Source of the DNA: Candidatus Euphemobacter frigidus
Lineage (GTDB): Bacteria > Auribacterota > Erginobacteria > Erginobacterales > Erginobacteraceae
Length of the DNA: 64,000 bases
Assembly (NCBI GenBank): GCA_030765805.1
Contig: JAVCDH010000003.1
Span: 1 to 64,000, forward strand
Direction: 5' to 3'
Position 1 is the first letter of the stretch, and each line of letters opens with the position of its first letter. The translations under genes and the position numbers were made by a program. The notes under the pieces are model-generated. The model worked only from the letters and a program-made list of their open reading frames with translations, was not told where the DNA came from and did no database searches. This document shows, piece by piece, positions 11,855 to 34,103 of this stretch.

Positions 11855-11889
11855 CTCTCGCCTTGCGGGTTGCCAATTCACTCTTCCGG

Positions 11890-12821: not shown

Positions 12822-12838
12822 GTCCATTAACAGCCGGT

Positions 12839-13861: not shown

Positions 13862-13874
13862 CTGCCACCCTTTC

Positions 13875-16028: not shown

Positions 16029-16062
16029 AATTTTTTTCTCTCTATTATCCACGCTCTGTTTC

Positions 16063-16308
16063 TCAGCCCCCCCCCTTCAATATGGGTATCGGCCCCCTGG
16101 TTTTAACCGGGTTGATTGCTCTCTGAGCCTTGGGCGTGACCCGGTATTGGCCATCGCTTCCTACCACAAGATAATCGTCTTTAAGAAGCCCCGCGCAGAC
16201 CCTTGCCGCGTATTCAGCGGAGACCCCGATCCTTCGAGCTATTGACTCACTATCTGCCTCGCGCAGGTTTGTAACAACCTTTACGATCTGGAGCTCTATT
16301 CCTTTCAT
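16063..16308 (-). CDS. Small winged-helix-like protein, copy 3 of a local family
   Basis: An 81-residue protein that begins [19 protein letters not shown] and continues with [20 protein letters not shown] and a hairpin [12 protein letters not shown]. It is the closest relative of the protein at 6166-6402. Its last codons run through a C9 tract on the plus strand (16067-16075, giving Gly-Gly-Gly before the stop), so only the C-terminal end would change if that tract slipped. It lies between the TPR gene and the Cdc48-like gene, 11 nt after the TPR stop. Confidence 0.62.
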
Positions 16309-16319
16309 CTTTAGCCTCT

Positions 16320-17042
16320 TTAATTTCCCGACAACCTTATGAAATCTTTCAATTCCCGCAGAGCCTCGAACCTCTGCCCCCGTGTCTTGTATAAGCGACT
16401 CAGGTTATAATGGGCCTCCGCGAAGCGGGAATTAAGCGCGATAGCTGTTTTGTATTCGTCGACCGCCTTCTCCGTCATACCCTTTTCCTGATAAGAGAGT
16501 GCCAGATTGAAATGGGAGTTGGCGTCGATAAAATCAAGCTCGATCGCCTTCTTTAATTCACGGATAGAATCATCCATTCTCCCCGACATCCCGTAAGTCG
16601 TACCCAGGTTGTAATAAGGTTCGGCCAGGTCCGGTTCAATCTCAACCGCTGTCCGGAACTCCGCCTTCGCCCTCTCGCGATCACCCATCCGATCGCAGGC
16701 TATCCCCAGATTATTATGGGCCCGCGCGTTGCCCGGATTTATCTGAAGGGCCTTCTCGAAGGCGATGATGGCGATTTGACAGTCCCCGAAGATCAGGCAG
16801 ATTACCCCGAGATTGTTCCAGGCCGGGTCCAGAAGGGGGTCAATCTCCAGGGCCTTCTTATACTCCTTTATCGCCTTCCGGTACTCCTCCCTCTCTTTAT
16901 ATATTACCCCCAGGTTATTATGGGCTTCGGGCAGCCCGGGGTTCAGTTCCAGCGCCTTCAAGTACTCGGATATAACACCCTGTGGGTGGCCGTCCCCGGC
17001 GAGGCTATTGGCGCGCTCAAAATGAACCAGGGCTTCTTTCAT
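16320..17042 (-). CDS. TPR-repeat protein
   Basis: A 240-residue protein made almost entirely of tetratricopeptide repeats, about seven 34-residue units with the pattern (A/P)-x-x-x-x-N-L-G-...-A-x-x-x-Y-x-x-A-(L/I)-x-(L/I)-x-P. Examples are AHNNLGVIYKEREEYRKAIK and AWNNLGVICLIFGDCQIAII. There is no signal peptide, so it should be a cytoplasmic scaffold. TPR proteins often dock Hsp70 or AAA ATPases, and this one sits between gvpN and the Cdc48-like gene. Its stop is 5 nt before the winged-helix gene region, so co-expression is likely. Confidence 0.88.
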   Translation of the reverse strand: MKEALVHFERANSLAGDGHPQGVISEYLKALELNPGLPEAHNNLGVIYKEREEYRKAIKEYKKALEIDPLLDPAWNNLGVICLIFGDCQIAIIAFEKALQINPGNARAHNNLGIACDRMGDRERAKAEFRTAVEIEPDLAEPYYNLGTTYGMSGRMDDSIRELKKAIELDFIDANSHFNLALSYQEKGMTEKAVDEYKTAIALNSRFAEAHYNLSRLYKTRGQRFEALRELKDFIRLSGN

Positions 17043-17047
17043 GGTAT

Positions 17048-17977
17048 TTAGTTATAACAGATCTCATCAATCAATCTGGTTATCTTTCCCCTGAAATCCG
17101 ATCTCCGGGATACGTCCAGCGAGTCCATCTCCGAATCCAGGATATCCAGACAGATCTTCGTGAAGCCCTCATCGGAAGAGGTTGGGCTTAGGTCGGCCAT
17201 GTTCATCACCTTGCCGATCATAATGGCGGCGCGGACTGTGGGTATGGCTCCGTTATTGTCGTGGTTTCTCAGCCCCCGGACAAGGTCCACGACCATCCCG
17301 GCTTCCGGAGGCGATATCCCGGTCTTGGCGGCGGTTATGGCTATCTCGGTATCCCGGTCGTAATGGCCCAGCTTTATGGTGATCAGCCGGTCCCAGAGGG
17401 CATCCTGCGCCCGGTGCACACCGGCGTACTCATGGGGATTGCTGGTAAAGATAGCCCGGAAATCGGGATGCACCTTTAAATATCCCTCCGTTCCCCGGGC
17501 CGCGGGAAGGTCGAGCATCTTTTCTTCCAGGACGGAGAGGAGGACATTATTGGCCTCGGCCCGGGAGCGGGTAAATTCATCATAGATAAGAGTGAAGCCG
17601 TGCTTGCAGGCCACGGTGAGTCGATTGTCCACCCACTTGCCGCTCACGTCTTCTTCGGCCTTGAGGACCGAGTGGATGAAATTGTCCACCAGCTTTCTCT
17701 TCCGATAACCAAACTCCGATCCGACCAGGTCGGAAGTGCCGAACTGTTCGTCCCCGTGAATCAGGATGGTCGGCTGACCCGCCTGGGCCGCCAGGTACAT
17801 GGCCAGCGTGGTCTTGCCGGTCCCGGCGGGGCCGGAGAGGTTGATCGGATAACCCACATCCAGGTACAAAAAAGCCCGCTTTAATATATCTTCTATCTGG
17901 GGCGTCATTACAAAAGCGGGCTGCTCCCTGGCCAGCATGATGGGCTGAACCTCGGCGATGGTATCGATCTCATTCAT
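17048..17977 (-). CDS. gvpN: Gas-vesicle AAA+ ATPase GvpN, copy 2
   Basis: A 309-residue MoxR-type AAA+ protein of the GvpN family. Walker A is GPAGTGKTTLAMYLA (about residue 50). The family-specific IHGDEQFGTSDLVG follows, then Walker B FTLIYDEFTRSRAEAN and the sensor FTSNPHEYAGVHRAQDALWD. GvpN is thought to drive vesicle enlargement together with GvpC. The other copy at 20869-21786 is clearly homologous throughout but not identical. It overlaps the gene at 17970-19091 by 8 nt. Confidence 0.94.
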   Translation of the reverse strand: MNEIDTIAEVQPIMLAREQPAFVMTPQIEDILKRAFLYLDVGYPINLSGPAGTGKTTLAMYLAAQAGQPTILIHGDEQFGTSDLVGSEFGYRKRKLVDNFIHSVLKAEEDVSGKWVDNRLTVACKHGFTLIYDEFTRSRAEANNVLLSVLEEKMLDLPAARGTEGYLKVHPDFRAIFTSNPHEYAGVHRAQDALWDRLITIKLGHYDRDTEIAITAAKTGISPPEAGMVVDLVRGLRNHDNNGAIPTVRAAIMIGKVMNMADLSPTSSDEGFTKICLDILDSEMDSLDVSRRSDFRGKITRLIDEICYN

Positions 17978-19091
17978 TTTTCTTCTCCTCAGGGTTGTAT
18001 TCTAATTTCCCCTCTCTCCAGTTGAACTTTATCTCCTCGGTTACAACCGGGGGTTCCCCCCCGCGGTTTAAGTTTCGTTTCTTCATCTCCTCCCAGCTCT
18101 CGATAACGGCCAGCCAACCGGTCCCGGTGCGCTCCAGGTTGATCAGACGGCCTATATCCGAGAGTTGACTCTCCAGGAACTGCTCGGCTTTTTCCTCGTC
18201 GCCGGCGTTAAAAGGCACGCTGTTCAGGGATTCCCGGAGGGGCCGCGTCAAGAGCCGCTCTTTAAGATTCTCCAGCATCGTTTCATCTGTTATCTGATCA
18301 CAGGAAGATACAGCCAGTTCATCGTCAATTGCCACCCGGCAGATAACCGGGATATCATCCCCTGAAATTCTCCTTCGTTTCTTCTCTTCCCAGGGTTCCA
18401 TCCATATAAGACACCCGTTCTCCCGCCACTCGATATCGAATACCTGCCCCGCGTTTTCCAGCGACTCTTTCAGGAGACCGGCCAATTTTTCCGTGTCTGG
18501 CGTACTTTTAGCCACTTCCCTTAATCTCGCGCCGAAATCGTCCAGGGCCTCTCCCAGTCTCTGCCTCAGCCTCTCCCTCCGCTGTCTCAGTTCTTCCTTC
18601 CTTATCTTCTCCGCCTCCCTCTTCTTCTCCCACGAGGTCGCTTCCCGTTCTAAATCACCGGCCCGGTCCCGGTTGCCCGGAGGCGGCTTCCCCAGGGCCC
18701 GGGCCCACTCCCGGGCGATCAGTTTCTTCCTGATCGAGACTACCGTGGCCGTGTTGAGCGGTATCTCCTTCTTCTTTTTTTTGTCTTTGTTGTCTTCCTC
18801 CTTCCAGGGATTATATTGAACCCAGGCCGCTTCATCGGGTTCGCCGGCCAGCTTTCGCTTGTCGTGTTCAATTATCGTTTTCGCCACGGCATCCCGAAAA
18901 GGAAGCCCCCCGGAAGAATCCTTTTTCAGCAGCTCCTTTCGTTGCAGCCTCCCGTCCCTTTCCATCTGCTTTTTCCAGGCCAGGGCCGCCTCTTCGAGAG
19001 GGGAGATGACCGCGACCTTCTTCCGTAGAATCCGGGCCTTTTCCCGGGACATTTCCTTTATCGCTTGAACTCTCGCGTTTATCACTTTCAT
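17970..19091 (-). CDS. Protein with coiled-coil front and two GvpO-like segments
   Basis: This 373-residue protein is not a recognised named family. Residues 1-120 are basic and helical (SREKARILRKKVAV). About 155-185 is a strongly charged coiled coil (EKIRKEELRQRRERLRQR). The C-terminal half has two repeats: NAGQVFDIEWRENGCLIWME-PWEEKKRRR and INLERTGTGWLAVIE-SWEEMKKRN, each preceded by a helical LKESLENA or FLESQLSDIG. The W-x-x-x-E-x-x-E core and following beta strand recall GvpO (GWVVALEMVEKHS). I infer a tandem-GvpO-related protein. It overlaps the upstream zinc-finger gene by ATGA and gvpN by 8 nt. Confidence 0.6.
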   Translation of the reverse strand: MKVINARVQAIKEMSREKARILRKKVAVISPLEEAALAWKKQMERDGRLQRKELLKKDSSGGLPFRDAVAKTIIEHDKRKLAGEPDEAAWVQYNPWKEEDNKDKKKKKEIPLNTATVVSIRKKLIAREWARALGKPPPGNRDRAGDLEREATSWEKKREAEKIRKEELRQRRERLRQRLGEALDDFGARLREVAKSTPDTEKLAGLLKESLENAGQVFDIEWRENGCLIWMEPWEEKKRRRISGDDIPVICRVAIDDELAVSSCDQITDETMLENLKERLLTRPLRESLNSVPFNAGDEEKAEQFLESQLSDIGRLINLERTGTGWLAVIESWEEMKKRNLNRGGEPPVVTEEIKFNWREGKLEYNPEEKKNE

Positions 19092-19867
19092 AATTTTCTG
19101 TCAGGTGGATTCCCGGCATGAGAAGCAAGGATGTAGTAGCGGCCTTCTCTCAAGAGAAGGCCCTTTCTGACCAGGGAGTCGCAGAGCTGCTCGGCGTAAG
19201 TTGAGGAGATCGGGGGCGATGCGTGCCTGCTCACGGCCACCCGGTCCGCCCGGCCCAGTTCCTTGACCACTTCCAGGACGTCCCGCTCGCTTCCCGAGGC
19301 CGTGCCGACCGGCCTTTCCCGCTCGACTTTAGCGGACAGGAAACTCTCCCCGCCTCCGCTCCACGGATTTCTGTCCGATGCTTTTAAATCATGGGATCTG
19401 GTCTCTTCTCTTACCGTGACAACACCTTTCCCCCGGCAGGTCCCGCAGACAAGCTTGTTGGTCGGCTCCTTGCCCGTTCCCCGGCATTTGGGGCATATCT
19501 CCACCGGCGCCTCCACGTGGTGAACTCCTTTGCCTTTACAGGCATTACAGGTCACATTGCTCCGGGGTTTTTCTTCACCCCTCCCCCGGCAGAAGGCGCA
19601 GGTGACGACGGGCGGGTCCACGATGAGGGTGCCCGTGCCCCGACAGACCGGGCACTTTGTGCCCCGGGGCCTTTCCCCCTGTCCCCGGCAGAATCCGCAG
19701 GGGTACTCCTCGTCCTCAAAGAGGGCGCCGGCCTGATGGCCACCGTAGGATTTCCCGGGACCTAGGGTGACCGGCTGCCAGGCCCATTCATCCTGCAGTT
19801 TTTTAATCCCGGTTTTCCCGGTCTTCAGCTTTGTTTTAAAACTTGCCTTGTCCCATTCCCAGCTCAT
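19088..19867 (-). CDS. DnaJ-type zinc-finger protein fused to a winged-helix-like domain
   Basis: A 259-residue protein. Residues about 40-150 hold six knots: CGFCRGQG, CPVCRGTG, CAFCRGRG, CNACKGKG, CPKCRGTG and CGTCRGKG. A polar linker follows. Residues about 190-250 resemble the small winged-helix family of this cluster (DVLEVVKELGRADRVAVSR, TYAEQLCDSLVRKGLLLREG). The ATG at 19867 has GGGGG just upstream and is preferred to the one at 19879. It links two families that are otherwise separate proteins here, which suggests that they work together. Its stop overlaps the next start as ATGA. Confidence 0.78.
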   Translation of the reverse strand: MSWEWDKASFKTKLKTGKTGIKKLQDEWAWQPVTLGPGKSYGGHQAGALFEDEEYPCGFCRGQGERPRGTKCPVCRGTGTLIVDPPVVTCAFCRGRGEEKPRSNVTCNACKGKGVHHVEAPVEICPKCRGTGKEPTNKLVCGTCRGKGVVTVREETRSHDLKASDRNPWSGGGESFLSAKVERERPVGTASGSERDVLEVVKELGRADRVAVSRHASPPISSTYAEQLCDSLVRKGLLLREGRYYILASHAGNPPDRKL

Positions 19868-19917
19868 CTTTACCCCCATTTACATGGTGCAAAATAGTGA
19901 ACAAATCCCTGATTACT

Positions 19918-20310
19918 TCAGTAGCTCCAATCCATCTTCTTAAAATGCCCTGGGACCTTCCGCTTGGTTTTTACGTCTGTCTTGTTTTCAGATTCTTCTA
20001 AACCACCCTTGGGGACCTTGGGTAATTTATCTTCCTTTTCCAGCAGGTCTTTTTTTACATCTCGCCATGAATCTGAAATGTTCTTTTGTCGTTTTCCTAA
20101 AATTTCGCCATATTTTTCCGTCCGTTCTTTCTCCTTAGTTCTTATATACATATCCAGATAATCCTGTCCTTCGGTCTTTGGCTTTGAATGGACTCTGGAC
20201 TGTATATTTGTCTTCGGGGGGATGCTGTCGCCTCTGCTCGGCTTTCTTTTTCTCCCCTCCTCATCTTCCCAAGGGAAAAATTTATCTGCATCTTTTTTAT
20301 AGTCCGGCAC
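19918..20310 (-). CDS. Highly charged hypothetical protein
   Basis: A 130-residue protein with no recognised family. It is rich in Lys, Glu, Asp and Arg with few hydrophobics. It has a short aromatic patch near the start (KFFPWEDEEGRKRK) and another at the end (GHFKKMDWSY), and a central helix (DYLDMYIRTKEKERTEKYGE). It is probably disordered with binding motifs at both ends. Its position in an uninterrupted same-strand gene run between the AbrB-like gene and the zinc-finger fusion argues that it is a genuine gene. Confidence 0.55.
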   Translation of the reverse strand: MPDYKKDADKFFPWEDEEGRKRKPSRGDSIPPKTNIQSRVHSKPKTEGQDYLDMYIRTKEKERTEKYGEILGKRQKNISDSWRDVKKDLLEKEDKLPKVPKGGLEESENKTDVKTKRKVPGHFKKMDWSY

Positions 20311-20404
20311 GGTTCATCACCCCCTTAATTGATTTACTCCCGGTCTCTGAAACCGGTAAAATGCCCTCTTTCTTCCGTCCTCTGCCCTCTATCCTTACCG
20401 TCCT

Positions 20405-20575
20405 CTACTTGGCCGCCTTGCGGGCGTGGATTGTTATATGCTGGGCCAGTTGAGTCCCCTGTATCTTGATCTCGACCATTTGACCGGGCTCCAACTTGGC
20501 CTCTCTCCGGATGTTGCCGGGAATAGGAATTCGGCCTTCTTCATCGACCCGCGCGTAAGCTCTCATCAATGTCAT
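20405..20575 (-). CDS. Short AbrB-like swapped-hairpin protein
   Basis: A 56-residue protein (ATG at 20575, TAG at 20405): MTLMRAYARVDEEGRIPIPG, then NIRREAKLEPGQMVEIKIQG and a final ITIH strand. This is a compact AbrB/MazE-type DNA-binding fold. It shares the E-G-x-I-x-I-P-x-x-I-R and G-x-x-V-x-I-K-I motifs with each half of the tandem protein at 815-1288. GGAGGA lies just before the ATG, and a TAGCGGC/GCCGCTA stem (20598-20614) stands before that. No MazF-type toxin is adjacent, so a local regulator is more likely than an antitoxin. Confidence 0.7.
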   Translation of the reverse strand: MTLMRAYARVDEEGRIPIPGNIRREAKLEPGQMVEIKIQGTQLAQHITIHARKAAK

Positions 20576-20868
20576 CTTCTTCCTCCTTTTATAAAATTAG
20601 CGGCTTCGCCGCTACTTTTATGTTTTGAACAACGACCATCATGATTCTATTGAGGCAATATCGGAAATTATTTTCACAATTGCAATGGGCATTTTATATC
20701 GAAATAATCTTATTTTTCCTGCGTAAAAATAATATTATTGAAATTTGAGCTTATCTTCTCAACTGCCTGGCGAGGTCTTCCTACCCCAGGTTCCGGGTTG
20801 GGATGGCCTTCCCGCGGGTATCTTTCTGAATTTCCGGATAACAATCCGGCCGGACACCGGTGGTCTCT
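20576..20868. other. Gap between gvpN copy 1 and the AbrB-like gene
   Basis: The 293 nt hold a small perfect stem at 20598-20614 near the AbrB-like ribosome site and an AT-rich stretch at about 20640-20750. I see no convincing gene. Short frames here are antisense or continue from gvpN. Confidence 0.5.
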
Positions 20869-21786
20869 TCAGCAGTATTGATCGAGCAGCTTGTTGATGA
20901 TCTCTCTGACCTTCTGCTGGTGGGAGCGGGAACCGACCCGGCTGGTCTCGGAAGTCAATATCTCCAGGGCCGTCTCCCGGAAGACCGGATTGTCCCTGGA
21001 GACGACCGCTCCCCGCACTTTCAGGGTCTTGCCGATCATGATCGGTCCCCGGATGGTGGGGGCGTACTCGCACTTGCCCGACTCCCGCAGGCCCCGCACC
21101 ACGTTAATCAACTTTTCCGCGTCCGGAGGAGAAAGATCGGTTTTCGCTACCGTGATGGCCACCTCGGTTTCCCCGTCATAGTGATCAAGGTCGATGGTGA
21201 TCATCCGGTCTCGCAGGGCATCCTGGCTCCGATAGACACCGGCGTACTCTTCGGGATTGGAGGTGAAGATGGCCGTGAAATTGGGATCGACCTTGAGGTA
21301 GCTCTCATTGCCTTCCCGGGCGGCGGGAAGATCGAGCATCTTTTCCTGAAGGACGGAGAGCAGAGTGTTGTTGGCCTCGGGGCGGGAACGGGTGAACTCG
21401 TCGTAGATCAGGGTGAACCCGTACTTGCAGGCCACGGTCAGGCGGTTGTCCACCCAGCGCCTCTGCATGTCTTCTTCGGTTTTCAGGACCGAGTGGATGA
21501 AATTGTCGATGACCTTCTTTACGCGGTACCCGTATTCTCCCCCCACCAGGTCGGAGGAGGAGAACTCCTCGTCCCCGTGGATCAGCATCACCGGCCGGCC
21601 GATCTTCGAGGCGATATGCATGGCCAGCGTGGTCTTCCCGGTGCCGGAAACTCCCCTGAAGTGGACGGGAAACCCGGCGGCGATATAGGCCAGCGATCTC
21701 TCGGTGACTCCTATGACCTGGGGGGTTTCAACGAAATTAGGCAGGGCCCGCGGCTCTAATACAGTGGTTAACTCTTCTACCGGCAT
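20869..21786 (-). CDS. gvpN: Gas-vesicle AAA+ ATPase GvpN, copy 1
   Basis: A 305-residue GvpN with Walker A GVSGTGKTTLAMHIA, IHGDEEFSSSDLVGGEYGY, Walker B FTLIYDEFTRSRPEANN and sensor FTSNPEEYAGVYRSQDALRD. Compared with the copy at 17048-17977 the ATPase core is strongly conserved, while the N- and C-termini differ. It is the copy nearer gvpA and the GvpC-like genes and is preceded by GGAGGTG before the ATG. GvpN and GvpC together build full-size cylinders in other systems. Confidence 0.94.
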   Translation of the reverse strand: MPVEELTTVLEPRALPNFVETPQVIGVTERSLAYIAAGFPVHFRGVSGTGKTTLAMHIASKIGRPVMLIHGDEEFSSSDLVGGEYGYRVKKVIDNFIHSVLKTEEDMQRRWVDNRLTVACKYGFTLIYDEFTRSRPEANNTLLSVLQEKMLDLPAAREGNESYLKVDPNFTAIFTSNPEEYAGVYRSQDALRDRMITIDLDHYDGETEVAITVAKTDLSPPDAEKLINVVRGLRESGKCEYAPTIRGPIMIGKTLKVRGAVVSRDNPVFRETALEILTSETSRVGSRSHQQKVREIINKLLDQYC

Positions 21787-22014
21787 CTTACACCTCCTTT
21801 TTTTTTAAGACGCACCCGCTGTCATGCCTTAACAGCGAATGGGCCGTTTGCGTTCTCCCATTCTGTACAAGTTACGACCGGAGACGCAATTCTTGTTGAT
21901 ACTCACTCCCGGATAACGGAGGAGGGGCTTTTATATGTCAAAAATAAGAGATAGTGCTAAAGTTTCCAACATTAAAGCAAGGGCGCCTTAACAATTTCCC
22001 CGCGGGGTGATTGA

Positions 22015-22368
22015 CTATACGACTCCTTTGCCCCCGCAATTCAGACAGGGAAGACTGTCGGGGGCCTGCCCGGTGCCTTTGCATACGGGACAGACTTTGG
22101 TTTTCTCCGGTACAGTGTTCACACCCTTACCCCCGCACACGGTGCAGGTGAGCCTCCGATCGGGGTAAATGCCGGTCCCATTACAGAAGGCGCATTCCGC
22201 GGTGGGGAGGATGACACTCACTTTCCCGGTTCCCCCACAGACCTGGCAGACGGACAACGGAGAGAGGAGACCAAAGGGGTCAATCCCTTCCCCGTCGCAG
22301 AAGGCGCATTTTATGGTCTTGCTGGAAACCTTTATTTCTTTGCCTGCTTTTACTTTTTTCTTGGCCAT
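22015..22368 (-). CDS. DnaJ-type CxxCxGxG zinc-finger protein without J domain
   Basis: A 117-residue protein with six knots: CAFCDGEG, CQVCGGTG, CAFCNGTG, CTVCGGKG, CPVCKGTG and CLNCGGKG, preceded by a Lys-rich leader. It is a close paralogue of the protein at 7145-7537, including the DPFGLLS/DPFQLLS spacer between knots one and two. It has no J or substrate domain. Located between the GvpC-like gene and gvpN, it could act with Hsp70 on early shell components. Confidence 0.82.
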   Translation of the reverse strand: MAKKKVKAGKEIKVSSKTIKCAFCDGEGIDPFGLLSPLSVCQVCGGTGKVSVILPTAECAFCNGTGIYPDRRLTCTVCGGKGVNTVPEKTKVCPVCKGTGQAPDSLPCLNCGGKGVV

Positions 22369-22482
22369 TTTACTTTCCTCTTCTTATATTCAGCATATAT
22401 TCTTGTCTCAACCCTTCTCACAATTCGGGGAAACAGCCCCCGGCTGTGATTTACTTCCCCTGAAGTATCTCCCCAACCGATA

Positions 22483-23742
22483 TTAACCCTTTTTAGCTGG
22501 AGTGCGCTCCGGCGGGCGTTCGATCTTTACCGGCTTGGGCGCCTCTGCCTTGGGCGCTTCGATCTTGGGCGCCTCGATCTTGGGCGCTTCGATCTTGGGC
22601 GCTTCGATCTTGGGCGGAGCGGCCTTCGGGGCCTCGGGTTTCGGGGCCGGCTCTTTTCCGGCTTTTCCCGGGGCTTCTTCTTTTGGTTCAGGAGGGGGTT
22701 TTGGTCCCCGGACGCCGGACATTGTTGACAACAGGGATTTCCAGGCGCCGGCGGCTGCTACTCTCTCTTCCCCGAAACCGGAAATTAAAACAGCTATATC
22801 AGCAGCACGAGTTTTATCTCCCTGCTTGCTTTCACCAATAAACTTGGCCATATCAGCAGCTCTGGCTTTATCCTCTTCTTTTAATACTACCAGGAGCCTG
22901 AAGACCTCATCGGCCATGATCTGAATTTCAGATGAAAACCTCTTGATAAGTTCTTTGGTTTCAATCTTTAACTTCTCGTTGTCTCCATGAAGTATGGCTA
23001 CTAGTTTATCGGTATCCCCCTTTAATTGTTGGTTTGCCGAAGCAATGGCCATGATCAATTTGTCGGCAGCAGCCTTTAGATTTGAAACCTCTTCGGCTCT
23101 TGCTTTATCCTGATCTTTACATTCTGATAGATACTTGACCATATCAGCAGCACGAGTTTTATCTCCCTGCTTGCATTCATCAATGAACTTGGCCATATCA
23201 GCAGCTCTGGCTTTATCCTCTTCTTTTAAGACCCCCAGGAGCCTGGAGACTTCATCGGCCATGGTTTGGATCTCGGCGCCAAACCTCTTGATAAGTTCTT
23301 TGGTTTCAATCTTTAACTTCTCGTTGTCGCCATGAAGATCACCTATCAATTTGCCGGTATCCCTCTTCAGTTGCTTATTCGCCGAAGAGATAGCAGTCAT
23401 TAACTTATCGGTGTCCGCCTTCAATCGCGTATTCGCCGAGCTAATAGCTTTGACCAATTTGTCTGAAGCTTGCTTTAAATCACGAACTATTTTAGCTCTT
23501 TTATTATCCTGGATGTTACATTCAGCTAAATACTTGGATATATCAGCGGCTCTGGCTTGATCTTCTTTCTGGCACTCGTTTAAAAGTGCGTCAACATCCA
23601 TCACCCGGGCCCGATCCTCTTTTTTGCATTCCCCGATAAACACCTCCGTGTCTTTTTTAATCTCTTTGATCCGTTTCACCCTATCCTGATAGGCATCGGC
23701 TATATCTTCAGCCAGGCTTGTATAATCTTGTGCGGTTGACAT
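22483..23742 (-). CDS. Repetitive coiled-coil GvpC-like protein with Pro/Ala-rich tail
   Basis: About 419 residues. The body is helical with a 16-18-residue repeat, for example KKEDRARVMDVDALLNEC, QKEDQARAADISKYLAEC, KEEDKARAADMAKFI and KQGDKTRAADMVKYL. A super-repeat of 115 residues is duplicated almost exactly. The tail is low complexity with four IEAPK pentapeptides and many Pro/Ala/Lys. GvpC is a repetitive amphipathic protein that braces the gas-vesicle shell. Position next to gvpA and gvpN and the repeat architecture suggest that role, but there is no classical 33-residue GvpC repeat. AAGGAGGTG supports the ATG at 23742 over an overlapping GTG at 23751. Confidence 0.65.
   Translation of the reverse strand: MSTAQDYTSLAEDIADAYQDRVKRIKEIKKDTEVFIGECKKEDRARVMDVDALLNECQKEDQARAADISKYLAECNIQDNKRAKIVRDLKQASDKLVKAISSANTRLKADTDKLMTAISSANKQLKRDTGKLIGDLHGDNEKLKIETKELIKRFGAEIQTMADEVSRLLGVLKEEDKARAADMAKFIDECKQGDKTRAADMVKYLSECKDQDKARAEEVSNLKAAADKLIMAIASANQQLKGDTDKLVAILHGDNEKLKIETKELIKRFSSEIQIMADEVFRLLVVLKEEDKARAADMAKFIGESKQGDKTRAADIAVLISGFGEERVAAAGAWKSLLSTMSGVRGPKPPPEPKEEAPGKAGKEPAPKPEAPKAAPPKIEAPKIEAPKIEAPKIEAPKAEAPKPVKIERPPERTPAKKG
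22549..22617. repeat. 15-bp tandem repeat encoding IEAPK
   Basis: GATCTTGGGCGCCTC / GATCTTGGGCGCTTC is repeated about four times in tandem with near identity, coding for the Pro/Ala-rich tail of the GvpC-like protein. Unit number could vary between strains. Confidence 0.85.
22796..23340. repeat. 345-bp super-repeat inside the GvpC-like gene
   Basis: Sequence at 22796-22995 recurs at 23141-23340 with only scattered differences. Both copies begin ATATCAGCAGCACGAG and include AACCTCTTGATAAGTTC. The offset is 345 bp, an exact multiple of three (115 codons), consistent with duplication by unequal recombination. Confidence 0.85.
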
Positions 23743-23825
23743 CTCTTTCACCTCCTTGCTGTTCTTTACTATCGTTACTATTTAATTACCTTTTCGCGTG
23801 ACTCTTATCTTTAGTTTGGAAAAAA

Positions 23826-24470
23826 CTATGAATTAACAGTGGCCATGACCCTTTGCCACTGACTGCTTATTTCATCCTTGACCTGTTCAAACTCTTCCAG
23901 CACCCTTTCCACTTCAATGTTGTCGTCTTTGCGCTCGATAGTAAACGCCTTTACCATCGCCTTGATGTCCTTGACCCTGATTGCGGGACCTTTTTCCAGC
24001 AACATCCGCAGGGCGATATTCAATTCTTCACGATCACGGTGGAAGTCCCGGAGCATCCGGCTGATTCTTCTCTCCCTCTCTTTCGGCCGTCTCAGCACCT
24101 TCTCCTTTAAAACATTGAAATCATCCACTACCGAAGGACTGCTCACGGTGAGAATCTCTTTCAATTTAGCCACCGTCTCCTCTTCATTCCGGCAGAAATC
24201 CTCCACCATCCGGTTAACCTCGTTTTCACGCTCCTCCTGATGGCTTCGAATTCCCTCCATCAGAGCGTCGAAATCACTTCTCCGCAGGGATTGATACCGG
24301 GAAAACCTCTCCCTCAGGTTATCAATCATCCGCTCCTGTTCCGCGTGATATTCCCCGAGCTTCCGGTTAACCTCCCTCATCAGGGCAATTACTACCTTTA
24401 CCTTTGATTCGTACGATCCGACTATCTCTCCGACCATTTTTGAGATTAACTCATGACTTCGCGTAACCAT
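23826..24470 (-). CDS. Second GvpC-like coiled-coil protein
   Basis: A 214-residue, almost wholly helical, charged protein: SHELISKMVGEIVGSYESKV, then ERMIDNLRERFSRYQSLRRS, DFDALMEGIRSHQEERENEV, NRMVEDFCRNEEETVAKLKE and a final EEFEQVKDEISSQWQRVMA. A loose repeat of R/E-x-x-(V/I)-x-x-(M/L)-(L/V)-x-x-(F/I)-...-E-E is visible. It lies immediately after gvpA, the usual place of gvpC. The ATG at 24470 has GAGAGG upstream; the longer frame to 24563 lacks a ribosome site. A gas-vesicle surface protein is the best guess. Confidence 0.6.
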   Translation of the reverse strand: MVTRSHELISKMVGEIVGSYESKVKVVIALMREVNRKLGEYHAEQERMIDNLRERFSRYQSLRRSDFDALMEGIRSHQEERENEVNRMVEDFCRNEEETVAKLKEILTVSSPSVVDDFNVLKEKVLRRPKERERRISRMLRDFHRDREELNIALRMLLEKGPAIRVKDIKAMVKAFTIERKDDNIEVERVLEEFEQVKDEISSQWQRVMATVNS

Positions 24471-24665
24471 AATCAACCTCTCAAACTTTCCTATCAGAGT
24501 GAGCGAGATGCGCTCAGAATCAAGCGGATGCCCTATAAAGCGGCATTTATTGCTGACTACCACGGATTACAAACTCAAACGTTCGCATGTCCCATCAGTG
24601 GTGATCCGTGTTAAAGCGGCTTTATACTCCCAAGGACATCCCGCTACCCCTTGGCCTGCTGCGGT

Positions 24666-24869
24666 TTAGGCAGCCGGTAAGAGACCCACTGCTTCGGCAT
24701 ACTTCAGGAAAGTCTCGACCGACGCAACCACGACCCGGGCTTCAATCGCCAGAAGTTCGATTCCGACGAGCGAAACCCTGACCCAGGCGTCAACCACGAC
24801 GCCCTTGTCCAGGATCCGGTCGACAACTTCGACCAGGCTGGATGAGGCTATTGCTTTTTCTACGGCCAT
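24666..24869 (-). CDS. gvpA: Major gas-vesicle shell protein GvpA
   Basis: A 67-residue GvpA, the hydrophobic subunit of the gas-permeable shell rib. The conserved order is visible: [20 protein letters not shown], then [20 protein letters not shown] and [15 protein letters not shown]. These correspond to helix 1, the beta hairpin and helix 2 of the known shell structure. Length and the lack of extra domains separate it from the two GvpJ-like proteins downstream. GGAGGCC lies 6 nt before the ATG. Upstream are three palindromes and then a receiver gene with a sigma-54 promoter. Confidence 0.97.
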
Positions 24870-24929
24870 CTTCGGCCTCCTTTGCTCCCGAGGGAGCTTT
24901 TCAGGATTCTATCAACCGCCTCAAAACAC

Positions 24930-24978
24930 GTTTTACATTATCGATTCCGCGAACGGATATCGAAAACTTATGTAAAAC
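24930..24978 (-). promoter_or_regulatory. Long palindrome upstream of gvpA
   Basis: GTTTTACAT (24930-24938) and ATGTAAAAC (24970-24978) enclose a second stem, ATCGATTCCG with CGGATATCGA around a GAA-type loop. On the minus-strand RNA the inner hairpin reads TCCG-TTCG-CGGA. It sits about 60-110 nt before the gvpA start. It could be a 5' UTR stability element, since gvpA mRNA must be abundant, or an operator. Confidence 0.6.
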
Positions 24979-25008
24979 CGCGTATTATGGAGGGGCGGTT
25001 ATCCTCAA

Positions 25009-25054
25009 TTCACCCCGGTGAACCGTGATGAATTATCCTTACCCCGAGGTAAGG
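25009..25054 (-). promoter_or_regulatory. Two short palindromes between receiver gene and gvpA
   Basis: TTCACC-CC-GGTGAA (25009-25022) and CCTTACC-CCGA-GGTAAGG (25037-25054). The second begins 9 nt after the receiver stop codon on the minus strand and could partly terminate or process the transcript. Neither is followed by a strong T run. They may control the ratio of regulator to gvpA expression. Confidence 0.5.
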
Positions 25055-25062
25055 ACCATAAT

Positions 25063-25419
25063 TTATTTCAAAGCTTTCTTTGCAACTTTCATTAACTTTG
25101 TCATATCAACCGGCTTTTCCATAAAGTCATAAACTTCCAGTTCGCCGGCCCTCTCCCGAGTGGATTTATCCCCGTATGCGGATATCATTATCGTTCTTGT
25201 TGAAGGACTTATAGCCTGGACTTTTTCGAGAACAGTTAAACCGCTTATTTTATATAGCCTGATGTCGAGGATTATTAAATCATATCGGTTATGACTGATT
25301 TTTCTTAAAGCATCTCTTCCGCTGTGGGCACTGTCAACGTCATATCCGTCATCTTTCAGGAAACAGGAGATAAGCCAGCAAGTGTCGTTATCATCATCAA
25401 CCACTAACACTCTGGACAT
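25063..25419 (-). CDS. Single-domain response regulator (receiver only)
   Basis: A 118-residue CheY-like receiver. Acidic pocket DDD (residues 8-10), phospho-acceptor Asp52 in LIILDIRL, the switch Ser in TIMISAYGD and Lys in FMEKPVD are all present. There is no output domain, so it works by protein contact or as a phosphate sink or relay. It is the first gene after a sigma-54 promoter at 25491-25508 and stands directly upstream of gvpA in the same direction, so transcription may read through into the gvp genes. Confidence 0.9.
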   Translation of the reverse strand: MSRVLVVDDDNDTCWLISCFLKDDGYDVDSAHSGRDALRKISHNRYDLIILDIRLYKISGLTVLEKVQAISPSTRTIMISAYGDKSTRERAGELEVYDFMEKPVDMTKLMKVAKKALK

Positions 25420-25490: not shown

Positions 25491-25508
25491 AGCAATAACC
25501 GTGCCAAT
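25491..25508 (-). promoter_or_regulatory. Sigma-54 (-24/-12) promoter
   Basis: The minus strand reads TTGGCACG-GTTA-TTGCT, an essentially perfect match to the sigma-54 consensus YTGGCACG-N4-TTGCW. The GG and GC doublets are the correct 10 bp apart. Transcription should start near 25480 and reach the receiver gene (ATG at 25419) after about 60 nt. A sigma-54 activator gene lies just upstream at 25999-27393. Confidence 0.88.
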
Positions 25509-25619
25509 GTTGCATGATGTGTTGAAATAATCTCCGAAACCTTTTTAACTCACCTAAAAAATCCCCGAAGGCCCTGGTGTCTTAGGGGTCACCGCGGAAG
25601 CCCGGAAAACGGCAGCATA

Positions 25620-25670
25620 AATATTTTGAGATACATCCGGTTTTTATAACCATTGCATTCTCAAAATATT
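25620..25670. promoter_or_regulatory. Candidate activator site: 12-bp inverted repeat
   Basis: AATATTTTGAGA (25620-25631) and TCTCAAAATATT (25659-25670) are perfect inverted arms with a 27-bp centre that itself contains GGTT...AACC. It lies 113-163 bp upstream of the -24 element, the normal range for enhancer sites of NtrC-family activators. The alternative is a stem-loop terminator for the NtrC gene, but it is 330 nt past that stop. Confidence 0.6.
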
Positions 25671-25891
25671 AACGCATCTCGCCCATCCGCCAAACAAGCG
25701 CAGGCTTTTCGCAACAGTCGCATAATCCGGGATGATCTGGTGATTCGCGGATTACTTTTAATCGGGGAGGGCAGGGGAAGAATATTTTTTAACCTGATCG
25801 GACCGGGGGGACTAATAAAAAGAAAGGCCGGGAAAAAATGGGACACTTCCGGGACGCGGCGGACGGAACTGACACAGTTTTAAAATTTTAC

Positions 25892-25998: not shown

Positions 25999-27393
25999 CT
26001 AACCAGACAGGCCCAGGCTCTTTAACTTGCGATAGAGGGTCTTTCGACTCATGCCGAGAATTTTTGCCGCCTTCACTTTTTTCCCACCGCTTTGCTCAAG
26101 GGCTTTATTGATCAAATCTCTCTCAACTTCCCTGGTTATATCTTCAAAGGAAGCGCCTTCTTCCAGGGCTTTTGTCAGATGAACTCTATCCTGAGAAAGA
26201 CCGAAGGATCTTTGAATTCCATCTCGCTCTTTGATGTCTTTCGGTAAATCAGCCGGGGTAACATGAGCGGACCCGGCCAGCAGTACCGCTCTTCTGACCG
26301 CGTTTTTCAACTCCCGAACGTTGCCGGGCCAGCGGTAGTTGAGCAGACTTCTCATCGCCTGGGCGGCGAACCCTTTGATTTTTTTGTCGAACTCATCATT
26401 TGCTTCCTTCAGAAAATGCCTGGCCAGGAAGGGGATATCATCTTTTCTCTCCCGGAGAGGAGGGAGATCGATGTGAAATTCATTCAGCCTGTGAAAAAGG
26501 TCGGGCCTGAACCTTCCCTGCCGAACGGCTTCCGATAAAGGGGTGTTCGTAGTCACAATAATCCGTACATCTATCTTTATATGTTTCTTGGCCCCCAGGC
26601 GGTAAAGTTTCCTCTCCTGGATAACTCTCAAAAGTTTCATCTGCATGTTCTCGGAGAGATTCGTGATTTCATCTAAAAATAAAGTGCCCCCGTCAGCCTG
26701 CTCAAATTTACCCGTCTTCTTCGCGTCCGCGCCGGTAAAAGCCCCTTTTTCATATCCGAAAAGTACACTTTCGGCCAATGTCCCCGGGATGGTGCCACAG
26801 TCTACCGGGATAAAAGACTTGTCCTTCCGGGTACTATTCTGACGAACCAGATGGGCGATCAGTTCCTTGCCCGCGCCGCTTTCGCCCTGGATGATCACGG
26901 TCATATTAGTGGGAGCTATTACTTTGACCTGGTTCAAAACCTGCTTTATTTGAAGGCTGTCTCCCATAACATCTTCTAAAGCAATCTCCTCCCCCAGTCT
27001 CTTTCTCAGGATTTCTACTTCCCTGCTCAGATATTGAGTCTGGAGAGCCCTCTTGACCAGAAGAACCAGCTCCTCGTTGTCAAACGGTTTGGTGATGTAA
27101 TCAAACGCCCCTAACTTCATTGCTTTTACCGCCCCTCTGACTTCGCCGAAGGCGGTAAGCATTATTACGATCACATTCTTGTCAATTTTTTTTATATTTT
27201 TTAATACCTCCATCCCATCCTCACCCGGGAGCTTGATGTCCAATAAAATCAGGTTGGGTGTGTCTTTTTTAACCGCTTTCAGCGCTTGTTTCCCATCAGA
27301 GACGGCTATGGTATGGTATCCTTCCTCCTTCAGAATATTGGAAAGGTTCCAGCGCAAATCCGCGTTATCGTCAACGATAAGTATTGATTCCAC
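25999..27393 (-). CDS. NtrC-family sigma-54-dependent response regulator
   Basis: A 464-residue activator with three parts. There is a receiver domain (DD at 8-9, phospho-acceptor Asp52 in LILLDIKLPGEDG), an AAA+ domain (Walker A GESGAGKE, the sigma-54 contact loop GAFTGA, Walker B GGTLFLDEI, and RWPGNVREL), and a C-terminal Fis-type helix-turn-helix (KVKAAKILGMSRKTLYRKLK). It would be phosphorylated by one of the nearby kinases and activate the sigma-54 promoter at 25491-25508. Similar regulators lie in other bacterial gas-vesicle clusters. It starts 21 nt after the AbiEii-like gene. Confidence 0.95.
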   Translation of the reverse strand: MESILIVDDNADLRWNLSNILKEEGYHTIAVSDGKQALKAVKKDTPNLILLDIKLPGEDGMEVLKNIKKIDKNVIVIMLTAFGEVRGAVKAMKLGAFDYITKPFDNEELVLLVKRALQTQYLSREVEILRKRLGEEIALEDVMGDSLQIKQVLNQVKVIAPTNMTVIIQGESGAGKELIAHLVRQNSTRKDKSFIPVDCGTIPGTLAESVLFGYEKGAFTGADAKKTGKFEQADGGTLFLDEITNLSENMQMKLLRVIQERKLYRLGAKKHIKIDVRIIVTTNTPLSEAVRQGRFRPDLFHRLNEFHIDLPPLRERKDDIPFLARHFLKEANDEFDKKIKGFAAQAMRSLLNYRWPGNVRELKNAVRRAVLLAGSAHVTPADLPKDIKERDGIQRSFGLSQDRVHLTKALEEGASFEDITREVERDLINKALEQSGGKKVKAAKILGMSRKTLYRKLKSLGLSG

Positions 27394-28330: not shown

Positions 28331-29881
28331 CTATTCTTGTTCGATTTTGCTAAGGATAGGAAGCCGGACTGTTACCTCTGTTCCCTGACCAAGGGTACTC
28401 TTTATTTTAATACTCCCTTTATGGAAGCTTATAATCTGGTGAGCCAGAGAAAGCCCCAAACCTATACCGTCTTTTTTCCTGGTGAAGAAAGGATCAAATA
28501 TTTTATCCATATCTTTATCCGGGATTCCTACCCCGGTATCTAAAAACCGGACTACAATTTCTTTCTCTTCCGAATAAGCGTTGATAAATAATCTCCCCCC
28601 CGTTTTCATAGAGTCCAGGGAATTTATTATAAAATTCAAGAACACCTGCTCCAACCGCTTTTCATCTATCATAATCTCCGGCATTCTCCGGGACGCCCTC
28701 TTGCTCAAGCGCACGTTCTGTTCAATACATCTGGCTTTGGCAAGGCTACAAACACGTGTTAGTATATTGCCTATCCGGCCCGGATTAAAAATCATTTCAC
28801 TAGGCTTGGCAAAATTTAATAGATCTTGAATAATTTTATTCGCGCTCCTCGAATTTCTCAATATAAGCCTCATATGTTTTTTAAATTGTTCACTCCGCAT
28901 CTGCTTGCTGAGGCATAATTGAGCCGAGGCGTAAATATTGCCGAGAGGGTTTCTTATCTCATGGGCGATGCCCGCTGCTAATTCTCCGACGCCCGCCATC
29001 CTCTCGGAATGAAACAATTGTTCTTCTGTTCGTTTTCGTATAGAAATATCCTTTGCGATGTGAACAGCACCAATAGCTCTACCTTTTTCAACTATAGGTG
29101 ATATAGTTTCCTCCAGATAAATCCCCAGATGAGGTTCAAAAAATTCCCTTATAACTGGAATCTTGCTTTTCATTGCCTGATTAAACGGGCAATCATTGGG
29201 GGGAGCTTTTCCCCCATGGAAAACTTCATAACACTTCATGCCAATCAATTCTTTCGGCGCCATCTTGAAAATATCTGAACAAGTTCTGTTTATCTGAGTA
29301 AGCTCGTAATTTTTATCTATGATCACAGCCATATCCGAGATGGAGTTAAAAGTCGTTTCCCATTCTTCGGCTAACTTCCTTGACTCTTCCTCCGCCTTCT
29401 TACGTTCGGCAACCTCGGTTTGCAGTTTTTCGTTTGCTTTCTTAAGTTCGGCCGTTCGTTTCTCTACCTCTCTTTCCAGATCGACATACGCTTTTTGCAA
29501 TGCGGCCTCGGCTTCGCGTTTCTCAATCGCCCTTTGGACAGTCAACAATAATTGATCTAAATTGTAGGGTTTTTCAAGATAGTCAAAGGCGCCCAGGTGG
29601 ATAGCCTCGATAGCCGATTTCTGAGAGGCGTAGCCGGTGAACACGATGCACTCCGTCCCGGGACTGAGTTTTTTTATTTCCTTCATTACTTCCAGGCCGA
29701 ACATATCCCCAAGCCTGAGATCTATCAGGGCAACCAAGGGTGCTTCCTTCTTTAACTTGATCAGGGCTTCTTTTCCCGTGGAAGCGGTTATAGACATGTA
29801 TCCCCTCTTCTCCAGGTACTCTGCCAGGCTTTCCCTCACGCCGGGGTCATCGTCTATGACGAGAATTTTGTTCTTCTTCAT
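28331..29881 (-). CDS. REC-PAS-histidine kinase
   Basis: A 516-residue kinase with an N-terminal receiver (DDD pocket, Asp54 in LVALIDLRLGD), a coiled coil (about 125-165), a PAS domain (about 175-285, with an NxxC-type FKMAPKELIGMKCYEV) and a HisKA domain with the H-box GELAAGIAHEIRNPLGN. The ATPase domain has N-box FINSLDSM and G-boxes DTGVGIPDKD and DGIGLGLSLA. No membrane segment is visible, so it is cytoplasmic. It probably signals to the NtrC-type regulator two genes downstream. The AbiEii pair separates them. Confidence 0.92.
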   Translation of the reverse strand: MKKNKILVIDDDPGVRESLAEYLEKRGYMSITASTGKEALIKLKKEAPLVALIDLRLGDMFGLEVMKEIKKLSPGTECIVFTGYASQKSAIEAIHLGAFDYLEKPYNLDQLLLTVQRAIEKREAEAALQKAYVDLEREVEKRTAELKKANEKLQTEVAERKKAEEESRKLAEEWETTFNSISDMAVIIDKNYELTQINRTCSDIFKMAPKELIGMKCYEVFHGGKAPPNDCPFNQAMKSKIPVIREFFEPHLGIYLEETISPIVEKGRAIGAVHIAKDISIRKRTEEQLFHSERMAGVGELAAGIAHEIRNPLGNIYASAQLCLSKQMRSEQFKKHMRLILRNSRSANKIIQDLLNFAKPSEMIFNPGRIGNILTRVCSLAKARCIEQNVRLSKRASRRMPEIMIDEKRLEQVFLNFIINSLDSMKTGGRLFINAYSEEKEIVVRFLDTGVGIPDKDMDKIFDPFFTRKKDGIGLGLSLAHQIISFHKGSIKIKSTLGQGTEVTVRLPILSKIEQE

Positions 29882-31196: not shown

Positions 31197-31710
31197 CTTT
31201 TCTCCTCTTTTTTTTCGTGTCTTTTTTTTCGCGCAGTTTTATCTCCAGGATGTTATTTTGGAAATGGGTCTTTATTTTTCCGGGGTCGACCATGAACGGG
31301 AGCAACATTTCTTTGGCGTATTTTTTCACTCCGGACGTGTCTTTGCCCCGGGCCGATATTTCAAGAATGTCGCCATGTATCTTCAACTGGATATCCTCCT
31401 TTTCTTCGACCCCCGGCAGGTAAGCGACAATCACCAGATCGGACACATACTCCAGGATGCTCATCGCCGGCTCCTTTATTCTCTCCACCATAAAATACTT
31501 GTCCGCTGAGAAACATCTGGTGAACTTTGGCTTCGGAGCAAATGTCCAGGAACGAATAGGCGCGGTCTTCTCCCGACTGACCGGTCCGGCTACTTTTATC
31601 CCCCCGACACCGACTTTAATGCTTACCCCGGGTTTTACGGATTTCTTCCGACCGCCTCTGCGGGTCCCGGATGAACCGGTGCTTGTTACTGAAGGTATGG
31701 ATCCGATCAT
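31165..31710 (-). CDS. Hsp20/alpha-crystallin protein, second copy
   Basis: A 181-residue protein with a Gly/Arg/Lys-rich N-terminus (SSGTRRGGRKKSVKPGVSIK) and an alpha-crystallin domain from about residue 88: SDLVIVAYLPGVEEKEDIQL, GDILEISARGKD, then FMVDPGKIKTHFQNNILEIK. It resembles the GvpH-type protein at 5454-6056 in layout. Its start overlaps the kinase stop as ATGA and its end overlaps the receiver gene. An Hsp20 inside a signalling operon is unusual and may tie stress sensing to vesicle assembly. Confidence 0.85.
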   Translation of the reverse strand: MIGSIPSVTSTGSSGTRRGGRKKSVKPGVSIKVGVGGIKVAGPVSREKTAPIRSWTFAPKPKFTRCFSADKYFMVERIKEPAMSILEYVSDLVIVAYLPGVEEKEDIQLKIHGDILEISARGKDTSGVKKYAKEMLLPFMVDPGKIKTHFQNNILEIKLREKKDTKKKRRKDEKENSDRGR

Positions 31711-34103
31711 TGTTCTGTTACTCCGTATTTTTGAGCTTTTACCGGGACCAGTACAGTGAATGTGGTCCCTTTGCCTTCCTCGCTTGTTACTTCTATGGCG
31801 CCCCCGAGCTTTTCTATAATTCCATAGGTGATAGAGAGCCCCAGGCCTACGCCTTTACCGGGCACTTTAGTGGTAAAAAACGGATCGAATATCCTGATCA
31901 TATCTTTCTCCGATATACCGTGTCCTGTGTCGCTGAATTCAATCTCCACCGCTGTGCCGGACTCCGCTGTCTCCCCGGCCGCCTCTTTAACCCCCTCGTT
32001 CCGGAGCTTGGTTTTTATTCTCAAACGTCCTCCTTCGGGCATAGCTTCGCATGAGTTCATGATTAGGTTGCTGAAGGCCAGGCTGAGCTGATGTCTATCG
32101 GTTTCCACTTTTGGCAGATGGGCCGCAAAGCCTTTTGACACTTCCATATTCGTAGTTTTGATTTGATCATGTAAATATTTCAGGGTTTCTTTTATAACTT
32201 CGTTTACATCGGTGGGAGCTAATTCAAAACGAGGCGTATGATAAGAGATCAGGAGGCTGCCCACGATCTCCTTGCATCGTTCGGTGGCTCGTTCCACTCT
32301 CTCCAGGCCCTTCGCGTAAATTTTTAAGTCGGGCATGTCAGCAACCTGCTTTTTAAGTAAAATAGACAGCCTCTGTACGTTTAGCATAATCGACGTCAGC
32401 GGGTTGTTGAGCTCATGAGCGACCCCTGCCGCCAGTTGGCCGATCGAAGTCAGTTTCTCGGTTTGAATAAGTTTTTCTTGTGTCTCTTTCAGTTTTATGT
32501 AAGCATTCTCTAACTCCTTGCTCTTCCTGGCCAATTCCTCTGCCCTTCTGCGTTCAGCCTCAGACGCTGCTATGGCAACGGCAAGTTCCTTCTCTCTTTG
32601 CATAAGGCGATTTATTTCACGCATATCGCGTGCGATACCGACTATGCCCACCAGCTTTTCTTTTTTATCTCTCATTACCGAACCGGAGAAACTGACGGGG
32701 ATTTTCTCGCCCAATTTTGTCTTATAGGGCATATCATAATCCCTGAGCGAGCCCTCTTTTATTAACTTTTTCAATTTGGCGGTACTAAATTCTTCTTCTT
32801 CTTCTTCTTCTTCTTCTTCTTCTTCTTCTGCAAAAAGTATATCAACAGGCTTTCCGATCAGCTCTTTTTTCGTGTATCCCAGCAGATCAAGTGTGGCCCG
32901 GTTAACAGTTTTTATCATCCCATCCGAGTCCGCCACGATCAGGGTATCGATCATGCTCCTGACTATATTGTCGGTATAATCCTTCGCCGCGATCAACTCG
33001 TCCAGGGATTTGCTCAAATCCCTGGTCATCCTGTCAAACGCCCTGGAAAGCTGCCCGATTTCATCCTTCGCGTCAGTGCCTACCCTGTAACCCAGATCGC
33101 CGCGGCCGATTACTTCGGTACCTTTGTGCAATTTTCGGATTGGCCCGCTGATGTTTCTCGAAACAAAAATGGCTACAAGCCATGCCAGTAACGGGATAAC
33201 AGCCATGATGCCGATGAAGGTGTTTCTTATTCCGGCCAGGAGCGCCAAGGCCTCTTTTTCGTCGATCTCCGCCACAAGGCACCACTGCATACACGGGATA
33301 TGGTCGTGTATACCGAGCACCCTGACTCCCCTGTAGTCCGTGTAAATCATCGCCTTGTGCGGATGCGGCTTTGAGCCGAACTTCTCGACGTCTTCAAAGC
33401 CCGCCCTTACGCCTGCGGTATCGACCTTCTGCCTGAGGAAAGTATCCTTCACAAAGTGGGAGGGCGTTATCATGTAGCCGTACTTGTTCACCAGGTATAT
33501 CTCGCCCGTTCTGCCGAGGCCCGTCCTGTCGGTTACTATTTTATTTAATTTGGCCAGGCTGAACCTGGCCGCGACCACGCCCAGAAACTTCTTGTTCTCT
33601 ATTACGGGCGCCGAGATAACCAGATGCTTTTTCCCCGTCGTTCTGGAATAGTAGGCATCTTTAATATACGGTCCTCTTCTTCCTCCCAAAAAATACGCGT
33701 CGGTTGACCTGTCCAGGCCGATGCTCTTCATGTCGCTGGAATTAACAATTACGCCGGTCGTGTTCATGACGAAAAATTCCTGAACGCATTTGCTGGCCTT
33801 TTCCGTCCCGTCCAGCCTTTCTGTGGCGATCTCTAATTTTCCGCCGTAACCCGGGGAGCCTTTGCCTGCCGATAGCAGGTTTGCGATATACATGCTTTTG
33901 GACAGTTGCACTACCTTCTCTCTCTCCGTTTCAAGGAAAGTCTCGACATGCCTCGCCCTTGATTGGGCCACTGAGTTCAGATGAGCGAATATCTCTTTTT
34001 TCAGGTTGTTTTTAGCCGGGATATATAAACTGAGCATGGCGAAACCGGCGAGCAGGGCGACCGCTATAATGAAATAGATGGTTATCTTACTTCCTGTCTT
34101 CAT
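31707..34103 (-). CDS. Membrane sensor histidine kinase with Cache, HAMP and PAS domains
   Basis: A 798-residue kinase. A membrane segment near residues 8-28 (IYFIIAVALLAGFAMLSLYI) is followed by an extracytoplasmic double-Cache-like region to about 290, a second membrane segment (IMAVIPLLAWLVAIFVS), HAMP, PAS (about 380-500) and a coiled coil. HisKA follows with LAAGVAHELNNPLTSIML, then the ATPase domain with NSCEAMPEGG, DTGHGISEKD and GKGVGLGLSIT. A run of about 14 Glu interrupts the PAS region, encoded by the triplet repeat at 32791-32829. It overlaps the substrate-binding-protein gene by 17 nt, so that protein may supply the ligand. Confidence 0.93.
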   Translation of the reverse strand: MKTGSKITIYFIIAVALLAGFAMLSLYIPAKNNLKKEIFAHLNSVAQSRARHVETFLETEREKVVQLSKSMYIANLLSAGKGSPGYGGKLEIATERLDGTEKASKCVQEFFVMNTTGVIVNSSDMKSIGLDRSTDAYFLGGRRGPYIKDAYYSRTTGKKHLVISAPVIENKKFLGVVAARFSLAKLNKIVTDRTGLGRTGEIYLVNKYGYMITPSHFVKDTFLRQKVDTAGVRAGFEDVEKFGSKPHPHKAMIYTDYRGVRVLGIHDHIPCMQWCLVAEIDEKEALALLAGIRNTFIGIMAVIPLLAWLVAIFVSRNISGPIRKLHKGTEVIGRGDLGYRVGTDAKDEIGQLSRAFDRMTRDLSKSLDELIAAKDYTDNIVRSMIDTLIVADSDGMIKTVNRATLDLLGYTKKELIGKPVDILFAEEEEEEEEEEEEEFSTAKLKKLIKEGSLRDYDMPYKTKLGEKIPVSFSGSVMRDKKEKLVGIVGIARDMREINRLMQREKELAVAIAASEAERRRAEELARKSKELENAYIKLKETQEKLIQTEKLTSIGQLAAGVAHELNNPLTSIMLNVQRLSILLKKQVADMPDLKIYAKGLERVERATERCKEIVGSLLISYHTPRFELAPTDVNEVIKETLKYLHDQIKTTNMEVSKGFAAHLPKVETDRHQLSLAFSNLIMNSCEAMPEGGRLRIKTKLRNEGVKEAAGETAESGTAVEIEFSDTGHGISEKDMIRIFDPFFTTKVPGKGVGLGLSITYGIIEKLGGAIEVTSEEGKGTTFTVLVPVKAQKYGVTEQ
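32791..32829. repeat. Trinucleotide (TCT/AGA) repeat, 13 units
   Basis: Thirteen uninterrupted TCT triplets on the plus strand encode a Glu run in the PAS region of the kinase. Loss or gain of units stays in frame, so length variants would lengthen or shorten an acidic loop without ending the protein. Confidence 0.95.

Follow-up and report, generated by a model that had tools for sequence, protein, structure and literature searches.

Putative sigma-54 control of a gas-vesicle operon by an adjacent NtrC-family activator in Candidatus Euphemobacter frigidus

The gas-vesicle operon in the window, by which we mean the whole 64,000-nt stretch of DNA analyzed here, is very probably (at a probability of about 0.85) controlled by a sigma-54 promoter together with the NtrC-family activator encoded beside it, with an array of GTCC(C) units as the likely enhancer and with transcription reading through to the gvp genes (Table 1). 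According to this model, RNA polymerase carrying sigma-54 would occupy the element at 25491-25507, and an upstream histidine kinase would phosphorylate the regulator encoded at 25999-27393. The phosphorylated regulator would then bind an enhancer, most likely the array at 25831-25875, and remodel the polymerase so that transcription starts near position 25480, the start predicted from the position of the element. The resulting transcript would cover a receiver gene first, then gvpA, and then further gvp genes.

Table 1. Features of the gas-vesicle region and the basis for assigning them
Feature	Coordinates	Strand	Basis or position
gvpF/L, gvpG, gvpO, CDC48-like ATPase, MoxR-type (GvpN-like) ATPases and ArsA-like ATPase, among the same-strand downstream genes	8157..24563	minus	
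gvpA, major gas-vesicle shell protein	24666..24869	minus	Pfam Gas_vesicle 2.8e-16
Leader between receiver gene and gvpA, 193 nt	24870..25062	minus	Fold and site scan
Single-domain receiver, proposed first gene of the gas-vesicle transcript	25063..25419	minus	Pfam
Sigma-54 promoter element TTGGCACG-N4-TTGCT (-24/-12)	25507..25491	minus	Exact consensus
Perfect 12-bp inverted repeat AATATTTTGAGA-27 nt-TCTCAAAATATT	25620..25670	not assigned	
Helically phased GTCC(C) array GTGTCAGTTCC-GTCCGCCGC-GTCCCGGAAGT-GTCCCATTTTTTCC, enhancer (UAS) candidate	25875..25831	minus	Profile and recurrence
NtrC-family response regulator, proposed activator	25999..27393	minus	Pfam
Receiver-PAS histidine kinase, candidate signal input	28331..29881	minus	Same strand, upstream of activator gene
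dCache-HAMP-PAS histidine kinase, candidate signal input	31707..34103	minus	Same strand, upstream

The promoter and the probable activator encoded beside it

The promoter element, TTGGCACGGTTATTGCT, has no mismatch to the sigma-54 consensus at the scored positions and is the sole exact consensus match in the window. It stands upstream of gvpA and on the same strand, facing a one-domain receiver gene and then gvpA itself. A fixed sigma-54 matrix, whose weights follow published sigma-54 compilations, gives the element 21.1 out of a maximum of 21.1, and the runner-up in the window scores 14.7. Pattern matching by itself is no proof of function, and the pattern TGGCACG-N4-TTGCW occurs at four sites in the genome, so the possibility of a functionless chance match deserves to be weighed. 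We regard this explanation as very improbable because, by our own estimate, only about 2e-5 such sites would be expected upstream of the receiver gene, because the reversed control pattern has no match genome-wide, and because sites of this kind recur across phyla. Indeed, comparison across gvpA loci, described below, leaves the promoter well supported as a functional element.

The gene next to the promoter codes for a protein in which Pfam recognizes a receiver domain, a sigma-54 AAA+ domain (Sigma54_activat), and a Fis-type HTH. This set of domains, along with the presence of GAFTGA, identifies the product as an NtrC-family enhancer-binding protein, and the recognition helix within its HTH reads SRKTLYRKLK. 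The gene is located within the gas-vesicle cluster and adjoins the promoter, and its product is one of only six clear sigma-54 activators in the genome. Relatives about 60% identical to it are encoded upstream of gvpA at four other loci (G011, L052, L053, and L170).

A preliminary description of this DNA had reported an essentially consensus sigma-54 element on the minus strand with a sigma-54 activator gene next door, and from these it had linked vesicle production to a two-component, sigma-54-dependent signal. Both observations are borne out by the results above, and the proposed link gains support from about 90 other gvpA loci. The same description had stated that the idea would be refuted if the genome proved to have no rpoN gene. 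This refutation fails because the genome carries a full-length rpoN (478-aa ORF, Sigma54_DBD 5.5e-58).

Two histidine kinase genes on the same strand are candidates for the signal input, and their positions suggest that either may be paired with the regulator. The more distant of these, the dCache-HAMP-PAS kinase, contains within its PAS domain an in-frame (GAA)13 microsatellite (32790-32828, minus strand), where changes in length would add or remove glutamates without causing a frameshift. Also present in the window (35252-36496, minus strand) is a gene for a 414-aa protein that combines a sigma-54 DNA-binding domain, in the absence of the rest of RpoN, with a GIY-YIG nuclease domain. Proteins of this composition were also found in L132, L133, L134, L135, and L055. 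In G064, G186, and G421, the gene for the GIY-YIG homolog directly adjoins genes for PAS-domain sensors with poly-glutamate tracts, and in the window a poly-glutamate PAS sensor gene lies 2.4 kb from the GIY-YIG gene, against a background of one such tract in 1.06 Mb. It is possible that this protein is a homing or diversifying nuclease linked to repeats.

Candidate enhancers upstream of the promoter

The GTCC(C) array lies 324-369 bp upstream of the -24 element. Phased GTCC(C)-like units spaced about 10-11 bp apart are common to the upstream regions of four other gvpA loci, L017 (G011), L052, L046, and L096. With a profile trained on these four loci only, the window being excluded, the array ranked first of 127,880 positions with a score of 26.7 (the next position scored 16.4), a ranking that is not fully blind because the units of the profile had been aligned by eye after the window was seen. 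Cleaner tests are provided by L063 and L170. With training extended to the window, the best match at an untrained locus was again found upstream of gvpA, at the Lentisphaerae locus L063, and L170, which was not used in training, carries an exact GTCCC-N6-GTCCCA. The core pattern of the array is unique in the genome.

The array also co-occurs, upstream of gvpA, with a particular recognition helix in the activator. The helix RK[AT]LYRK is common to the regulators encoded in the window and at L052, G011, and L096. A set of ten more loci came from the same phylum as L052. Both of those with this helix have the array, which is exact in L170 and weaker or degenerate in L171, and the array was not seen in those of the ten whose activators carry other helices. 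Counting against the array is its position, which is farther upstream than in its relatives (roughly 110-190 bp). We also considered whether the array might belong to the activator gene, as its 3' tail or its terminator. This idea was rejected on the evidence of G011, where the array stays with the promoter even with the end of the activator gene about 3 kb distant. A hairpin-forming dispersed repeat is located at 25892-25955, and the genome has partial copies of it on four or more further contigs.

The preliminary description had assigned the binding site of the activator to a perfect 12-bp inverted repeat that lies 113-163 bp upstream of the promoter element. The position and the arms of this repeat (AATATTTTGAGA at 25620-25631 and TCTCAAAATATT at 25659-25670, separated by a 27-nt gap) are as that description gave them, and the search of the genome that it recommended returned this one copy only. 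The probability that such a repeat would arise by chance within the 491-nt intergenic stretch is about 0.003. In addition, its center lies about 138 bp from the -24 element, which matches the distance of the palindromic enhancer candidates at the gvpA loci of Bacteroidota and Chlorobi, and this usual enhancer spacing leaves room for the repeat to have some role. As the binding site of the activator, however, it is an unlikely candidate. The repeat is absent from every related gvpA upstream region examined, the loci whose activators have the same helix share the GTCC(C) array instead, and the AT-rich arms and 27-nt gap do not resemble the compact palindromes of other loci. The lack of any counterpart in the relatives examined likewise led us to reject the repeat as a conserved enhancer, and its membership in a dispersed element was rejected because the stretch at 25512-25835 is single copy. 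On comparative sequence grounds, the GTCC(C) array is most likely the better enhancer candidate.

A different part for the repeat to play would be that of a DNA-bending site of the IHF or HU type, which would bring the distant array to the promoter. This proposal is consistent with the location of the repeat between the array and the promoter, and the right arm, TCTCAAAATATTA, matches the IHF consensus at all positions but one. Such a match is weak, however, and IHF sites do not usually come as an inverted pair, which makes bending a tentative and somewhat doubtful assignment.

Probable read-through from the receiver gene into gvpA

Because the receiver gene intervenes, gvpA is not the first gene after the promoter. 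To have gvpA in first place is a trait of the Serratia system discussed below and is no requirement of the mechanism. We infer that transcription continues through the receiver gene into gvpA, whose relatives are 74%-92% identical, and the downstream genes are presumably served at least in part by the same promoter. The receiver protein lacks an output domain, and we would guess that it acts as a phosphate sink or relay.

The leader between these two genes forms a strongly structured RNA with several hairpins (fold z-score -4.6). A promoter at 25491-25507 that serves the receiver gene only, with gvpA expressed from a promoter of its own within this leader, would agree with the length and structure of the leader and with the many other phyla in which a sigma-54 site directly precedes gvpA. 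We consider this arrangement quite improbable, given that a scan of the leader found no terminator-like site and neither a sigma-70-like nor a sigma-54 site on the minus strand. Moreover, in the Desulfobacterota loci L034 and L038, and also in L094, the gap between the receiver gene and gvpA is only about 60-110 bp and the sigma-54 site is upstream of both genes, which supports read-through. No Rfam elements were found in the region 22000-30000.

Leaders in other lineages carry a feature of their own. In 22 of 23 leaders from Bacteroidota, Chlorobi, and Ignavibacteria (e.g., L060, L093, and L108), the sequence CCGTCCCTC occurs 47-57 nt before the gvpA start. It is found 319 nt before gvpA in L078 and has no match in control stretches. 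Possibly, this sequence is a conserved leader RNA element.

Gas-vesicle loci across phyla and known regulatory systems

The comparison drew on 80 gvpA loci from genomes of many phyla, most of them metagenome-assembled and with labels that may be wrong; 76 had enough upstream sequence. Sigma-54 sites scoring at least 13 within 700 nt upstream of gvpA were found in the sense orientation at 23 of these 76 loci and in the antisense orientation at none. The presence of rpoN was checked for 50 loci, with weak Sigma54_DBD matches (E >1e-20) scored as no rpoN, and Cyanobacteria, Patescibacteria, and Chloroflexi that lack rpoN served as natural negative controls. A sigma-54 site within 1500 nt was present at 17 of 35 loci with rpoN versus one of 15 without it, for which the Fisher p value of 0.005 is indicative only because the loci are not phylogenetically independent. 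About half of the rpoN-bearing loci (16/35) have no clear sigma-54 site, which means that sigma-54 control is common rather than universal and that other controls exist.

A sigma-54 site is interposed between gvpA and the NtrC-family gene at most loci that have such a gene ahead of gvpA in the same orientation. Similarly, strong sites (scores of at least 14.5) occur in six of the eight loci with an NtrC gene among the ten further loci from the L052 phylum and in neither of the two without one. Judged from such sites and gene orders, the pairing of a putative sigma-54 promoter for gvpA with a neighboring activator recurs in about a dozen phyla. At 11 loci (L034, L038, L042, L052, L053, L094, L172, L173, L174, L176, and the window), a receiver gene is found between the promoter and gvpA. 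No gvpA turned up in the four genomes that share family and order with the window genome, which precludes a comparison at close range. At the Desantisbacteria locus L040 (G081), gvpA is preceded by an NtrC gene and by a strong sigma-54 site. No rpoN was found in that genome despite the strong site, possibly because the assembly is incomplete or because the site is a relic.

At loci of Bacteroidota, Chlorobi, and Ignavibacteria (e.g., L070, L093, and L108), the palindrome CGCAC-N4-GTGCG is found about 240-260 bp before gvpA. It is present in most of 15 such loci, in a few cases farther upstream, has no match in control stretches, and is probably the enhancer there. A TATGGAA-type palindrome was rejected as a general motif, as its strict pattern is present in two loci only and has one control match. 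Taking the loci jointly, we lean toward the view that sigma-54 enhancer control of gas vesicles is widespread outside cyanobacteria, that recognition helices and enhancers form lineage-specific pairs, and that a subset of lineages has a receiver-first operon, possibly with phosphorelay feedback. The pairs would involve the GTCC(C) array in PVC-type lineages, the CGCAC palindrome in Bacteroidota and Chlorobi, and the TATGGAA palindrome in some others.

These comparisons suggest that gas-vesicle genes are commonly under sigma-54 control in many lineages that are uncultured and in some that have been cultured (e.g., Polaribacter filamentus), and for each lineage they predict an enhancer, a promoter, and a regulator that can be tested. 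They would also connect flotation with two-component signaling in bacteria still beyond cultivation, and offer regulator-enhancer pairs for the inducible expression of gas vesicles. Sigma-54/NtrC control of gvpA is already known from Serratia sp. ATCC 39006, the only organism for which we found it described in the open-access literature. The breadth of its occurrence, which we did not find described there, the receiver-first operon, and the candidate enhancer sequence are new. The same literature yielded no paper linking Auribacterota with gas vesicles.

To our knowledge, the GvpE and GvpD regulators of haloarchaea are unrelated archaeal proteins that work with archaeal promoters and without sigma-54. 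What they share with the system in the window is that regulators of the gas-vesicle genes, in their case of gvpA, are encoded in the cluster itself (PMC9501494). The likeness to NtrC-type two-component systems extends to the receiver, the GAFTGA-bearing AAA+ domain, the Fis-type HTH, the -24/-12 promoter, and a putative remote upstream site. General NtrC systems use a simple palindrome pair, whereas the candidate enhancer in the window consists of direct, helically spaced GTCC(C) units.

The system in the window would work in the same way as that of Serratia 39006, its closest parallel, in which the start of gvpA1 has been mapped downstream of a sigma-54 element and the NtrC-like protein GvrA is needed for expression (PMC4982088). 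Expression of gvpA1 also needs rpoN, according to thesis work that PMC11778176 cites; the window genome carries the rpoN gene. The Serratia operon begins with gvpA1, gvrA is at the head of another operon, and the quorum-sensing repressor SmaR also acts there, whereas in the window the receiver gene comes first and the regulator gene lies upstream of the promoter. The candidate enhancer is unlike that of Serratia, and the resemblance of the regulator to GvrA is one of family and proposed role. Common to both systems are a sigma-54 element before the shell-protein operon and an NtrC-family regulator whose gene is part of the gas-vesicle cluster.
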